Positions 20,617-25,735 of a stretch of 64,000 bases of DNA are shown one piece after another (within the stretch, counting starts at the first letter, position 1; each line of letters begins with the position of its first letter). The notes below the pieces were generated by a model, which did not search any database, had not been told where the DNA came from, and saw only the letters and a program-made list of their open reading frames with translations. Made by a program: the position numbers and the translations under genes. Source of the DNA: Patescibacteria group bacterium (GTDB lineage Bacteria > Patescibacteriota > Patescibacteriia > 2-12-FULL-60-25); assembly GCA_031082005.1 (NCBI GenBank), contig JAVHLR010000001.1, positions 563,251 to 627,250 on the forward strand, read 5' to 3'.

Positions 20617-21174
20617 CTAATAGTCTAACCCTTCGCGTGCCTTTACGCCACGGTAAAAATAATGTTTTTTCAATCCCATTTCAGTCACAAGATCCGCTAA
20701 GTCCAAGAAACTCTGTGGCGCATTTCGTCCGGTCAGTATCATCTCCAGATTGTCAGGCTTGCTCTTCAATAGATCGAGTATGTTCGCCTCTTCGACGATG
20801 CCGAGGTGGGTCGAGGGGTTAATCTCATCCAAGACGACCAGATCATAACTGGCTGCCGAAAAAATCTCTCTGATTATGTTTATCCCGCGCTCGCCTTCCG
20901 CTCTGTCTTCGTCAGTCACGCCGAAGCGGAATCTGCCTTTTTCGTCGATCCTATCCAGACCGGTCGGGAAAATTTCAATTTCAGGGATGCGCTCGCGTAA
21001 GATCAAGCGTTCAGAATAATGACTCTCGCCTCCTTTGTCGAAATAGACGATAGCACATCTTCTGCCCTGGGCAGCGGCACGCAAGGCCGTACCCAGTGCA
21101 GCTGAAGTCTTGCCCCTACCGTCCCCGGTGAAGACCTGGATCAGACCCCAGCGAATTTCTCTCTCGTCGGACAT
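20617..21174 (-). CDS. cobO: Cob(I)alamin adenosyltransferase, CobA/CobO type
   Basis: A 185-residue P-loop enzyme that makes adenosylcobalamin. Motifs are the Walker-type GDGRGKTSAALG (about 17-28), IVYFDKGG, the Walker B-like LVVLDEIN and the C-terminal MILTGRNAPQSFLDLADLVTEM typical of CobA/BtuR. No corrin biosynthesis genes are present, so it probably activates imported cobalamin. The likely client is the B12-dependent ribonucleotide reductase two genes upstream on the same strand. Its ATG is 1 bp after the preceding stop. Confidence 0.92.
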   Translation of the reverse strand: MSDEREIRWGLIQVFTGDGRGKTSAALGTALRAAAQGRRCAIVYFDKGGESHYSERLILRERIPEIEIFPTGLDRIDEKGRFRFGVTDEDRAEGERGINIIREIFSAASYDLVVLDEINPSTHLGIVEEANILDLLKSKPDNLEMILTGRNAPQSFLDLADLVTEMGLKKHYFYRGVKAREGLDY

Positions 21175-21175
21175 G

Positions 21176-21559
21176 TCAAAAACGTTGTTGGATGTCGATT
21201 ACGTTTATGCCCATAGCCTCCAACTCTTCATCATAGGGCAGATTCTTGTCCCATTTGGCCAAAGCGTAGAGACGCTTGTCTAAAGCCATCGCCATGCCAA
21301 GCTGCAGAAAGGTGTTCGGGCCTATGTAACCCTCCAGACCGCCACGCGGGGTGTCATTCGCCACCAAAACAGCGTCGCAGCTCTTGATCTGCTCGTACAT
21401 GCTCTTCATGAACTCGTTTTTGGTTTTGACCCTATCTGCGAAGTGCGCGCTCGAGGTGTCTATCGGTACAAGCACTTTCTGACCTTTTTGGCGTAATATC
21501 TCCGCGATGTCTTGCAGACGCGCCAAGTTACGTAGTGATCCGATGACGCAAGTGGTCAT
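21176..21559 (-). CDS. Nucleoside 2-deoxyribosyltransferase-like protein
   Basis: A 127-residue Rossmann-type protein. It has VIGSLRNLARLQDIAEIL at the N-terminus, SCDAVLVANDTPRG in the middle and GYIGPNTFLQLGMAMALDK near the end. The last stretch resembles the catalytic Glu/Asn region of the deoxyribosyltransferase superfamily, although the usual Glu position is less clear here (GYIGPNT). It sits with the adenosyltransferase and the reductase, which suggests a nucleotide-metabolism role. Exact activity is uncertain. Confidence 0.6.
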   Translation of the reverse strand: MTTCVIGSLRNLARLQDIAEILRQKGQKVLVPIDTSSAHFADRVKTKNEFMKSMYEQIKSCDAVLVANDTPRGGLEGYIGPNTFLQLGMAMALDKRLYALAKWDKNLPYDEELEAMGINVIDIQQRF

Positions 21560-21674: not shown

Positions 21675-24600
21675 TTAGGAACACCCGCTAGTCGCACCGC
21701 AGTTAAGGCATTTATAGCAAGCGGCGTTCCTGACCATGATCGATCCGCACGTGTCGCACGCTGGAGCATCAGACTGATTATCGATGGTCGAGGTCAGCTT
21801 GCTTGTCTCGGCGGCATGTTCGAGTAGACTCGGTTGATGTTCGCTGGCTTCAAAATTGAGCTTCGCTTCTTCCGCTGCTTTGCCGTCCTCGTTCTCCAGT
21901 GAGACTGCTGCTGTTTCCGGCATAGCGTTGATCCCGAGTGCCGCGCACTCATCCGGCTCCAGGAATTTCATGCCGAGCCAACGGAAAATGTAGTCGATGA
22001 CAGACTTGGCTACGCGGATATTCGCGTTCTGGGTGAATCCAGACGGTTCGAAACGTACGTGCGCGAATTTATTGACCAGGATCTTAAGCGGTACGCCGTA
22101 CTGCAGACCTATCGAGACAGAGGTGGCGAAGGCATCAAGCATGCCGCGCAACGTACTCCCCTCCTTGCTTAAAGTGATGAAGATCTCCCCCGGCGTCCCA
22201 TCATCGTACAGACCGACAGTGATGAAACCGGCGTGCGAACCGACCTTGAATTTATGTGTGATCGATTTACGCTCGTCCGGCAGTCTGCGACGTCGTGCAT
22301 AGGGTACTTCGACCGGAGCTGCTGTTACGGCTGCTGTCACTTTTTCATTCTCCTTTACCTCTTGTTTCGTGGTGGTGAGCGGCTGTGAGCGTTTGCAGCC
22401 ATCGCGATAGACGGCCACGGCTTTTAGACCCAGTCTCCAAGCTTCGACATAAGCTTTTTCGATGTCTTCGACGGTCGCTTCGTTGGGGAGGTTGACGGTC
22501 TTGGAGATCGCGCCGGAGATGAAGGGTTGCACGGCCGACATCATGTGCAGATGGCCGCGGTAATGTATCGAGCGTTTGCCTTTGGCTGGTTTGAAGGCGC
22601 AGTCGAAGACCGATAGGTGTTCATCCTTCAGATGTGGTGCTCCCTCGATGGTGTCGTGCTGATCTACGTATTCCAGTATGGTGCGGATCTCCCCCTCGCT
22701 GTATTTCAGCTTATGCAATGCTTCGGGCACTGTGCGGTTTACAATCTTGATCATGCCGCCGCCGACGAGCCATTTGTAGGAAACTAGCGATATCGCTGGC
22801 TCGACGCCAGTCGTGTCGCAATCCATGAGGAACGAGATAGTCCCTGTCGGTGCAAGCACAGAAATCTGTGCGTTCCTGAACCCGGCACGCGTGCCGCGCT
22901 CTAGCGCTTCGTCCCAGGCCGTCTTGGCGCGTTGGAACAGATCCGTCTGGAGATTAGACTGGTTAAGTTGATCCGCCGCCTCACGATGCATCTTGATGAC
23001 GTTCAGCATGGGTTCGCGGTTCTTCTGGAAGCCGTTGAACGGACCGATCTTTTCCGCGATGCGTGCCGATTGTTCGTATGCTACGCCTGACATGACCGAT
23101 GTGATGGCAGCGGCGACGTTGCGTCCGTCATCTGAATCGTAAGCCAAACCGCTCGACATGAGCAGCGCTCCGAGGTTGGCGTAGCCTAAGCCCAACGGAC
23201 GATAATCATGCGAGTTCTGTTCGATGGCCGGAGTCGGGTAGCTCGATGCTGCGACGATGATTTCCTGCGCGGTGATGATTATGCGGCACACGTGCTCGAA
23301 TGCACCCACGTCGAACGACGCGTCGTCTTTCCGGCACTGCATCAGGTTGACCGACGCCAGGTTGCACGACGAATCATTCAGGAACATATATTCCGAACAG
23401 GGATTCGATCCGTGGATGCGGTCCGTGTTGGGGCAGGTGTGCCATTTATTGATCGTCGAATCGTACTGGAGTCCCGGATCTCCGCACTGCCATGTCGCTT
23501 CCGAAATCTGATTGAGCAGATCTTTGGCGCGGAATTTGTCGCACGGTTCTCCGGAGAGCACGTATTTGGTCCAAAAGTCCCGCTGTTCTTCGGCGGCCGA
23601 CATGAATTCATCCGTGACACGCACCGAGTTGTTGGCGTTCTGGAAGAATACGGAAGAGTACGCTTCGCCGTTGATTCCGCCGTCAAAACCAGAGTCGATG
23701 AGCGCATGGGCCTTCTTCTCTTCCTTGGCTTTGCACCAGATGAACTCCTCGATATCCGGATGGTCGATATTGAGCATGACCATCTTGGCGGCGCGCCGCG
23801 TTTTGCCGCCGCTCTTGATCACGCCGGCGAAGGCATCGAAACCGCGCATGAAAGACACGGGGCCTGATGATTTGCCCGAAGAGTTGCCTAGGTTCTCTTT
23901 CGAGGAACGTAGGTTCGACAGATTGGATCCGGTTCCTGAACCGAACTTGAACAGCATGCCTTCGGTCACGGCGAGGTTCAGGATCGAGCGCATGTCGTCG
24001 CTTACGGAGTTGATGAAGCAAGCCGAGCACTGCGGTTGTTGGATGACGCCGACATTGAACCACACCGGGCTGTTGAAGGCGGCACGTTGGTTAATGAGGA
24101 TGGAGGTCAATTCCATCTCGAAAATCTCCGCGTCCTCGGCAGTCGCAAAATAGCCGCGCTCGCGTCCCCAATCCGAAATCGTCTTAGCCAGCCGGTCGAC
24201 CACTTGGCGCATTGAGGTCTCGCGCGTCGGTGTACCGAGCCTGCCGCGGAAATATTTCGATACTATGATGTTAGTGGCCGTCTGGCTGTACGTTTTTGGC
24301 ATCTCGACGCCCTTTTGTTCGAAGATGACCTTGCCTTTTTCGTTGGTGATCGAGGCATCGCGCAAATCCCATTCGAGCTCGTCGTATGGATGGACGCCCG
24401 CTTTGGTATAAAAACGTTTGACGCTTATCCCCTTGCCGTAACGCGGTTTTCCGTCGAGCGCCTTGCTGTCTAGCCTGTAGCCTAGGTATTTTTTGGCCAC
24501 GTGCAGCAGGTTCGAATCGATCAGCGTGATGCTGATGACCTCCCTGATATCAGCTGCGCCAGGGACCGTGTGTCCGTCGAATTTGCGATGCAGGCGGGAG

Positions 24601-24821
24601 AGCGCATTTTCCGTTATCTTGCCGATGGTCTTTTCCGCCTCTACGCCAGCAGCGCGGCAGGCTAAGCGGATGGAACGTTCGAATTTTTCAGCGCTGAACT
24701 CGACGATGCGTCCGTCTGTCTTGCGGATATTCTTGAGCGAAGTGACTTCGTGCCATAACGAAGAAGCCGCCGATTCCAGTTCGGTCGTCGTGGGAGAGCT
24801 GAAAACATTTGAGTCGGACAT
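21675..24821 (-). CDS. nrdJ: Adenosylcobalamin-dependent ribonucleotide reductase (class II)
   Basis: A 1048-residue enzyme reducing ribonucleotides to deoxyribonucleotides with AdoCbl, without oxygen dependence. An N-terminal ATP-cone-like segment (VEFSAEKFERSIRLACRAAG) is followed by the catalytic barrel with the redox Cys in CSACFINSVSDDM. The active-site loop is NPCSEYMFLNDSSCNLASVNL, and PTGTISFLMDCDTTGVEPA follows. A C-terminal Zn/redox tail ends CDTCGSIMVRNAACYKCLNCG. ATG 24821 (MSDSNVF) is chosen because the 80 codons open upstream lie in a structured leader. Confidence 0.95.
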   Translation of the reverse strand: MSDSNVFSSPTTTELESAASSLWHEVTSLKNIRKTDGRIVEFSAEKFERSIRLACRAAGVEAEKTIGKITENALSRLHRKFDGHTVPGAADIREVISITLIDSNLLHVAKKYLGYRLDSKALDGKPRYGKGISVKRFYTKAGVHPYDELEWDLRDASITNEKGKVIFEQKGVEMPKTYSQTATNIIVSKYFRGRLGTPTRETSMRQVVDRLAKTISDWGRERGYFATAEDAEIFEMELTSILINQRAAFNSPVWFNVGVIQQPQCSACFINSVSDDMRSILNLAVTEGMLFKFGSGTGSNLSNLRSSKENLGNSSGKSSGPVSFMRGFDAFAGVIKSGGKTRRAAKMVMLNIDHPDIEEFIWCKAKEEKKAHALIDSGFDGGINGEAYSSVFFQNANNSVRVTDEFMSAAEEQRDFWTKYVLSGEPCDKFRAKDLLNQISEATWQCGDPGLQYDSTINKWHTCPNTDRIHGSNPCSEYMFLNDSSCNLASVNLMQCRKDDASFDVGAFEHVCRIIITAQEIIVAASSYPTPAIEQNSHDYRPLGLGYANLGALLMSSGLAYDSDDGRNVAAAITSVMSGVAYEQSARIAEKIGPFNGFQKNREPMLNVIKMHREAADQLNQSNLQTDLFQRAKTAWDEALERGTRAGFRNAQISVLAPTGTISFLMDCDTTGVEPAISLVSYKWLVGGGMIKIVNRTVPEALHKLKYSEGEIRTILEYVDQHDTIEGAPHLKDEHLSVFDCAFKPAKGKRSIHYRGHLHMMSAVQPFISGAISKTVNLPNEATVEDIEKAYVEAWRLGLKAVAVYRDGCKRSQPLTTTKQEVKENEKVTAAVTAAPVEVPYARRRRLPDERKSITHKFKVGSHAGFITVGLYDDGTPGEIFITLSKEGSTLRGMLDAFATSVSIGLQYGVPLKILVNKFAHVRFEPSGFTQNANIRVAKSVIDYIFRWLGMKFLEPDECAALGINAMPETAAVSLENEDGKAAEEAKLNFEASEHQPSLLEHAAETSKLTSTIDNQSDAPACDTCGSIMVRNAACYKCLNCGATSGCS

Positions 24822-25097
24822 ACCCTTTGGGATAAGATTTTTGGGATGTATTAAATCGTCCCCGACATCCGTCGAGACAATAATCCGACCAAGCTTGCGC
24901 AAGGATGGATTTATCCGCCTTTGCTGATGCTTGGCGGTTCGTCGGTCAACTGCGGCGCCCCGGTCGAAACCGGAGAGTGCGTGATGCCGCTTGCCGTCCC
25001 CTGACGGGCTATTTTGGCCTCGCTGGAGATTTTTTGGGGTATTTTGTCTCCCCTCTGGCATGGGTTATGACCGCCGACCACTATATCTTGTGGTCGC
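24822..25097 (-). promoter_or_regulatory. Long structured leader of the nrdJ mRNA (candidate cobalamin riboswitch or nrdJ-motif RNA)
   Basis: About 275 nt of non-coding RNA is predicted between the promoter and the ATG. On the transcript several perfect hairpins follow each other: GACCAC/GTGGTC at the very 5' end, CCGTC/GACGG (loop AGGG), CCGGT/ACCGG (UUCG tetraloop) and CCGCC/GGCGG. The stretch CGTCAGGGGACGGC resembles the cobalamin-box core (GYCAGGAGACC) but does not match it fully. A B12-sensing element before a B12-dependent reductase is common; the exact RNA class is not proven. Confidence 0.55.
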
Positions 25098-25103
25098 TTT
25101 CTG

Positions 25104-25112
25104 ATTATACCA
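25104..25112 (-). promoter_or_regulatory. Extended -10 promoter of nrdJ
   Basis: TGgTATAAT on the minus strand, with a TTGACC further upstream at a 21-bp spacing that is too long for a normal -35. Start predicted near 25097. Confidence 0.65.
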
Positions 25113-25153
25113 CAAGATGTAGTAGTCGAGGGTCAAGTTTTTGGTTTACCTGT

Positions 25154-25735
25154 TCATAACCCTAAGGATAAGTTAAGTGGGCTTTTGTTTTGCGATTCGG
25201 CTGGGAGTATCGGCATCGGAACCCTCTGTTTTTGTCCCATCCGGTCGAAATAAAAAACATGCTGGTTCTCGATAGCGAATTCATAAACGTCACGTGTGAT
25301 CCTGACGTCCTGCAGGCAATAATCGCGCAACTTGTCTATCTCCCCTTTTTTCCAGAACTCGACGGCTTGGAGTCCGTGGCCGCTTTTGCCTATGCCCAAA
25401 GTGGCGTGCGCCACGTCGTCCAACTTCACCCTGAAACCTATCCTCTTCTCAATCTCGACCATCACATCGACCGTGGGTATGCGTTTGAAGTCACCCGTGT
25501 AATAAGACTGCATGCACGGGTAGTCGAAGCCAAACAGGTTGTAGCCTATCACCCGATCCGCTCTCTCCAGTCGCGGCCAGAGTTTGGGCAGGTCCTCTTC
25601 CATGAAAGCCTCGAAAGTATCCGTCTCGTAGAAATAGCAGCCGATCAGCGATATCTGCAATAAAGATGGATTGTAAGCTCCGACATCTTGGAATGTATTC
25701 TGCGTTTCGATATCCAATACTACTTCATTGCGCAT
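25154..25735 (-). CDS. Predicted 3'-5' exonuclease, DEDD/RNase H-like
   Basis: A 193-residue protein of the DnaQ-like superfamily. Exo I is VVLDIETQNTF (Asp and Glu metal ligands), Exo II is DRVIGYNLFGFDYPC, and Exo III is LRDYCLQDVRITRDVYEF with Tyr-Asp, all present. It resembles the YprB/PolB-type stand-alone exonucleases. It lies upstream of nrdJ on the same strand, but the nrdJ promoter is between them, so it is a separate unit. The substrate (DNA or RNA) is not determined. Confidence 0.85.
   Translation of the reverse strand: MRNEVVLDIETQNTFQDVGAYNPSLLQISLIGCYFYETDTFEAFMEEDLPKLWPRLERADRVIGYNLFGFDYPCMQSYYTGDFKRIPTVDVMVEIEKRIGFRVKLDDVAHATLGIGKSGHGLQAVEFWKKGEIDKLRDYCLQDVRITRDVYEFAIENQHVFYFDRMGQKQRVPMPILPAESQNKSPLNLSLGL

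Follow-up and report, generated by a model that had tools for sequence, protein, structure and literature searches.

What controls the ribonucleotide reductase (RNR) operon in this Patescibacteria genome, and does the control involve vitamin B12? In the window (the whole stretch of 64,000 nucleotides that we analyzed, which is part of a 1.31-Mb genome), nrdJ encodes a class II, adenosylcobalamin-dependent RNR of 1,048 amino acids (21675-24821, minus strand; PF02867, PF08471, PF03477, and PF12637). A Pfam search identified an ATP-cone and a C-terminal TSCPD domain in NrdJ. (The closest named relatives with the same nrdJ are Candidatus Uhrbacteria and other Patescibacteria MAGs.) Downstream of nrdJ are a nucleoside 2-deoxyribosyltransferase-like gene (21176-21559, minus strand; PF05014) and a gene for an ATP:corrinoid adenosyltransferase (CobO/BtuR; 20617-21174, minus strand; PF02572), whose product would supply adenosylcobalamin (AdoCbl) to NrdJ. 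Directly upstream of the RNR operon is a predicted 3'-5' exonuclease (RNase_H_2 / DNA_pol_B_exo2; 25154-25735, minus strand), and such a gene also lies near the RNR operon in G011 (L189 5373-5954) and G029 (L191 310-912). A sequence-only reading of the window had proposed that the long leader of nrdJ is either a divergent cobalamin or nrdJ riboswitch or a different sensor.

The outline of the leader proved sound. We set the start codon of nrdJ by comparison with a congener (G003), which places the ATG at 24819-24821 (minus strand), so the lower end of the leader is at 24822, as had been proposed. On the minus strand, we also recovered the extended -10 promoter element (TGGTATAAT) at 25104-25112 and, following it, a leader that measures about 275 nt; we infer that transcription starts near 25097. 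We looked for a -35 element at a spacing of 16-18 nt from the extended -10 and found none. In the window, the nrdJ reading frame is open through the leader as far as an ATG at 25061. This had been put down to chance, and we agree, because in G003 the frame is closed 12 nt before the ATG and in the remaining orthologs the in-frame stops are scattered at unrelated positions. As the frame is not conserved among the orthologs, we ruled out the leader as coding sequence.

The leader is also strongly structured: its predicted folding energy is -99.1 kcal/mol (z = -3.4), which beats all 200 of 200 dinucleotide shuffles. The hairpins that had been described are there, at 25075-25096, 24958-24975 (capped by UUCG), 24915-24937, 24882-24911, and 24856-24880. 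The last three, all on the minus strand, are common only to the window and G003: hairpin A (24915-24937; CCGCC/GGCGG), hairpin B (24882-24911; AATCC/GGATT in the window and AAACC/GGTTT in G003), and hairpin C (24856-24880), which is 35 nt upstream of the start codon. All three are also predicted in G003, although their loops differ.

The promoter-proximal hairpin appears to be, first of all, a DNA element: an operator for the repressor NrdR, which the earlier reading had missed. Two palindromic boxes, box 1 (CTACTACATCTTGTGG, 25110-25125) and box 2 (CCACAAGATATAGTGG, 25078-25093; both on the minus strand), are separated by a 16-bp spacer (25094-25109) in the layout CTACTACATCTTGTGG-TATAATCAGAAAGCGA-CCACAAGATATAGTGG. 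The boxes bracket the extended -10, with box 1 upstream of it and abutting it, and the functional region reaches 25125 rather than ending at the promoter element. In published work, the two boxes of NrdR sites are 15-16 bp apart (PMC12051234) and overlap the RNA polymerase site (PMC9110341); the window's two palindromic boxes fit this spacing rule. Furthermore, the genome encodes NrdR, a repressor with a zinc ribbon and ATP cone (TIGR00244, 180.1 bits versus a cut-off of 124.65).

When we searched DNA with the leader as the query, only its first 38 or so bases recurred in most other genomes of the family, and the good matches to these bases were always near RNR genes. The tandem pattern of NrdR boxes occurs once in G000 with no mismatches and, with up to 3 mismatches, in 37 of the 41 family genomes (some of the 3-mismatch sites are probably due to chance). 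This tandem site is found in front of RNR operons across the Uhrbacteria family. With its two palindromic boxes, its 16-bp spacer, its overlap with the RNR promoter, and nrdR in the genome, the operator is an ordinary member of the NrdR regulon; what is unusual is a structured RNA directly downstream. In the transcript, the box-2 palindrome would form a 5'-terminal hairpin (25075-25096, minus strand) that extends past box 2. Both here and at the equivalent sites in other genomes, the palindrome outgrows the 16-bp NrdR box, and its flanking bases vary with pairing kept in several genomes (for example, GCGACCAC/GUGGUCGC and UAGACCAC/GUGGUUUA), which could mean that the 5' hairpin has a role as RNA.

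Does the rest of the leader sense B12? A divergent AdoCbl riboswitch, or the known nrdJ RNA motif, might control this B12-dependent enzyme: the leader precedes nrdJ, a corrinoid adenosyltransferase gene is downstream, and cobalamin riboswitches (RF00174 and its Rfam variants) are known from long leaders before RNR genes. However, neither RF00174 nor any other Rfam cobalamin family matched the leader or its relatives, and no Rfam family at all did so beyond chance level (E up to 10). RF00174 was found in 0 of the 41 family genomes, and in 8 of 14 control genomes. The nrdJ RNA motif (RF03034; cut-off 40.3 bits) is likewise a structured RNA immediately upstream of nrdJ, but it had no match above its cut-off in the 41 genomes. 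Its best score, 18.7 bits, was on contig C6 of G020, and the RNR leader of that genome is on C59. Weak matches to microRNAs, RNA-OUT, and Esr41 were all far below the gathering scores and were rejected; most of the weak matches coincide with a palindrome (that of box 2 or of the tandem boxes) on one strand or the other. Of the original proposal, the cobalamin and nrdJ branch fails and the branch of a different sensor survives; the leader is real and structured, but it is very probably not a cobalamin switch.

By comparing the leaders of nrdJ orthologs with one another, we discovered by eye a motif that is common to 7 genera. These leaders have the layout P1, an optional and variable P2, P3, an unpaired ACGC(A/G)C, P4, the return strand of P3, and the return strand of P1. 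The sequences of P3 and P4 vary between leaders and their pairing is preserved. In the window, the fold and the alignment to G003 place the element at 24940-25078 (minus strand), with the 5' strand of P1 at 25068-25078 and its 3' strand at 24940-24948. P1 is found in most relatives, and the P2 domain inside the element is genus-specific. The conserved core (24952-24990, minus strand) reads GCGGC-AUCACGCACU-CUCCGGU-UUCG-ACCGGGG-C-GCCGC from 24990 to 24952, with P3 formed by 24986-24990 and 24952-24956 and P4 formed by 24969-24975 and 24958-24964. (P4 is the UUCG-capped stem mentioned above.) Between P3 and P4, AUCACGCACU (24976-24985, minus strand) is single-stranded and contains the ACGC (24979-24982, minus strand) that is common to all motif-bearing leaders in our alignment (A2). 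Two pairs of P4 differ between the window and G003: the first is C-G in the window and U-A in G003, and the second is U-G in the window and C-G in G003.

MAFFT misaligned the core helices, and in A2 the variable loops were represented by N placeholders. In a hand-built seed of 11 sequences, 95.5% of the pairs are standard and 12 of 12 pairs show changes on both sides. The covariation score of the seed was 1.15, as compared to 0.25 in shuffles, a contrast that is partly circular since the helices were picked by eye. We also looked for the best P3 and P4 around an ACGC in each leader and repeated the same search on shuffled sequence: 15 of 18 leaders from the 7 genera had p ≤ 0.013, and the window core had p = 0.007. 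The strict descriptor was failed or weakly passed by the leaders of G029, G037, and G004. The duplex test for P1 was mostly non-significant by itself, and P1 is supported by its consistent placement.

These comparisons bear on whether the NrdR operator alone matters and the structure downstream of it is just the chance folding of a long leader. The NrdR boxes are the strongest conserved feature of the region, and the genera with short leaders manage without the element. But a strong P3/P4 (score of at least 31) surrounds 14 of the 31 leader ACGC sites, versus 24 of 1,936 ACGC sites (1.2%) elsewhere in the same loci. In addition, six leaders (G039, G011, G021, G005, G029, and G004) were outside the definition of the motif and of our covariance model R1, and the first four of these pass; the G029 leader is weak (p = 0.28) and the G004 leader lacks P4. 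Given this evidence, chance folding beneath a lone operator seems very unlikely to us.

When R1 was run over 96 genomes, its top matches were eight RNR leaders: six from the seed and two from outside it (G039 and G011), one of which sits before a class I operon. The lower-scoring matches that we inspected (L149, L151, L157, L195-L199, L201, and L206) are in coding genes, and among the inspected matches the link to RNR operons is exclusive. A second model (R2) did no better, and its high match away from RNR (G026:C17, 28.1 bits) is within a coding sequence and is a chance hit. The window core itself scores 13.9 bits against R1 with filters off, which does not rise above the noise of a whole-genome scan. 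The window's copy is among the weaker ones, recognized through its congeners, and the case as we read it rests on the relatives. Beyond the family, a search of 381 genomes of the class gave no convincing motif; the only other matches are weak (E = 0.04-0.09), are inside coding genes, and are at chance level for this many genomes. Within the family, the element is absent from several genera (g7, g12, and those with short leaders, some of just 17-55 nt) and hence is dispensable. Nevertheless, the homologous leaders do contain a covarying P3/ACGC/P4 core, so the result that would have counted against the original proposal, a lack of covarying helices, was not obtained. Like a riboswitch, the element has a conserved structured aptamer with covarying helices in a 5' leader, and we are confident that it is a conserved structured RNA.

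The sequence-only reading had also missed that class I RNR operons stand behind this same leader, which makes B12 sensing unlikely. In five genomes (G011, G029, G021, G005, and G004), tandem NrdR boxes and the ACGC element precede the RNR operon, although in G004 the element is a loop without P4. The annotated operons of G011 and G029 encode a TSCPD protein (which in G011 has an ATP-cone), then NrdB (PF00268), and then NrdA (PF02867 and PF00317). Class I RNR (PF00268) is present in 17 of the 41 family genomes and none of these 17 has a full-length match to nrdJ; the two classes are mutually exclusive within the family. RNR in the class I genomes therefore does not use AdoCbl as a cofactor, and a leader that responds to B12 would serve no purpose in them. 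Nor is the element restricted to genes with a B12-related role or to isozymes selected by B12 availability: it serves class I RNR in genomes that lack class II. Because the same leader precedes nrdBA operons in sister genera without nrdJ, AdoCbl is an unlikely ligand. We consider it extremely improbable that the element senses AdoCbl, and equally so that the leader is a divergent AdoCbl riboswitch or a form of the known nrdJ RNA motif.

In the class I operons of G011 (L189 1343-5274) and G029 (L191 1068-4622), the TSCPD part of the first gene shares about 60% identity with the NrdJ C-terminus. It looks as if the catalytic core of NrdJ was exchanged for NrdB and NrdA and the regulatory domains were retained.

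Overall, we favor, with moderate confidence, two-layer control of the RNR operon, by a lineage-specific and class-independent cis-regulatory RNA beneath NrdR. In the first layer, as suggested by the published work on NrdR, NrdR with dATP/ATP would block transcription initiation at the boxes that bracket the extended -10. In the second layer, the transcript would open with the box-2 hairpin, followed by a rod-like RNA: P1, an internal loop or the P2 insertion, P3, an asymmetric internal loop with ACGC(A/G)C, and P4. The likely recognition site is the ACGC that lies exposed between the covarying helices. The structure is shown by comparison; as to function, the element probably works in cis, affecting RNR expression once initiation has taken place, and on balance we think it likely that it regulates RNR in this way. 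We searched the leader for an intrinsic terminator on the coding strand and found none, and reading the leader revealed no recognizable sequestration of a ribosome site. By eye, the sequence around the start codons of the nrdJ orthologs is A-rich or reads CCCUAUG, and it has no obvious Shine-Dalgarno sequence. Because of these starts and the lack of a terminator-like site on the coding strand, the leader would more plausibly act on translation or on the stability of the mRNA than through attenuation at an intrinsic terminator.

What would the element recognize? Because it is kept before both nrdJ and nrdBA operons, its input is more likely to be common to all RNRs than to be AdoCbl; the candidates are a nucleotide or dNTP, another metabolite, or an RNR-linked protein. 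That it directly senses a small molecule is plausible, with our expectation leaning slightly against it. A specific form of this idea, a class of riboswitch that senses a (deoxy)nucleotide such as dATP, or the ATP/dATP ratio, and controls RNR irrespective of its class, seems unlikely. An RNR-linked protein (perhaps one with a TSCPD domain or ATP-cone) or another RNA-binding protein might instead bind the ACGC loop and autoregulate the operon. TSCPD is the domain that is retained as the first gene when the class of the catalytic subunit differs, and a short conserved loop within a rod is a typical protein site. But the operons of G012 and G033, which lack the element, also have TSCPD genes, and we did not find RNA binding by TSCPD in the literature, so we think that a protein-binding leader is rather unlikely. 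Similar doubt applies to a leader that senses nothing, with the 5' hairpin and the rod merely protecting the mRNA or keeping the start site open. This would suit the location of the element at the extreme 5' end of the inferred transcript, the freedom of P2 and the flanks to vary, and the fact that we recognized no switch platform. In contrast, stability alone would not require an invariant ACGC in a single-stranded loop whose flanking helices vary.

As to known systems, the element differs from the nrdJ RNA motif in its own core (the ACGC between P3 and P4) and in its presence before class I operons as well as in lacking a match above the cut-off of that family. It differs from cobalamin riboswitches in that no covariance model matches it in the leader, the relatives, or the 41 genomes, and in that it also accompanies a B12-independent enzyme class. 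It resembles orphan riboswitch candidates in general, in which conserved bases stay unpaired amid covarying helices and the 5' leader belongs to a single functional gene set; however, its distribution is very narrow (one family of Patescibacteria). We found no description of such an element in the literature that we searched, which was mostly open-access. The folded RNA is apparently not listed in Rfam and would be a family of structured RNA from a poorly explored group, the Patescibacteria.

Feedback on RNR is known to operate via protein ATP-cones and NrdR. The leader RNA stays the same whether the operon encodes a class II or a class I enzyme, which points to a control that is common to all RNRs. 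If the nucleotide-sensing reading were true, there would be RNA-level feedback beneath the protein-level feedback of NrdR. A defined RNA of roughly 100 nt (from G011 or G001, for example) would be suitable for direct tests of (d)NTP and protein binding.

Other RNR leaders may hold further structured RNAs. The nrdJ leaders of genus g12 (L011, L012, L016, and L017) lack the ACGC core, are longer, and have a different-looking structure; they seem to have a layout of their own, GGGAAA...AGCAAC - hairpin - GUGG, which is possibly a second, different leader RNA. The nrdJ leaders of L028, L074, and L075, from other lineages, share the stretch ...CCAGGAGA-AAA..GAUCC..GGAUCUUAUUUU..., a candidate for a further structured leader.
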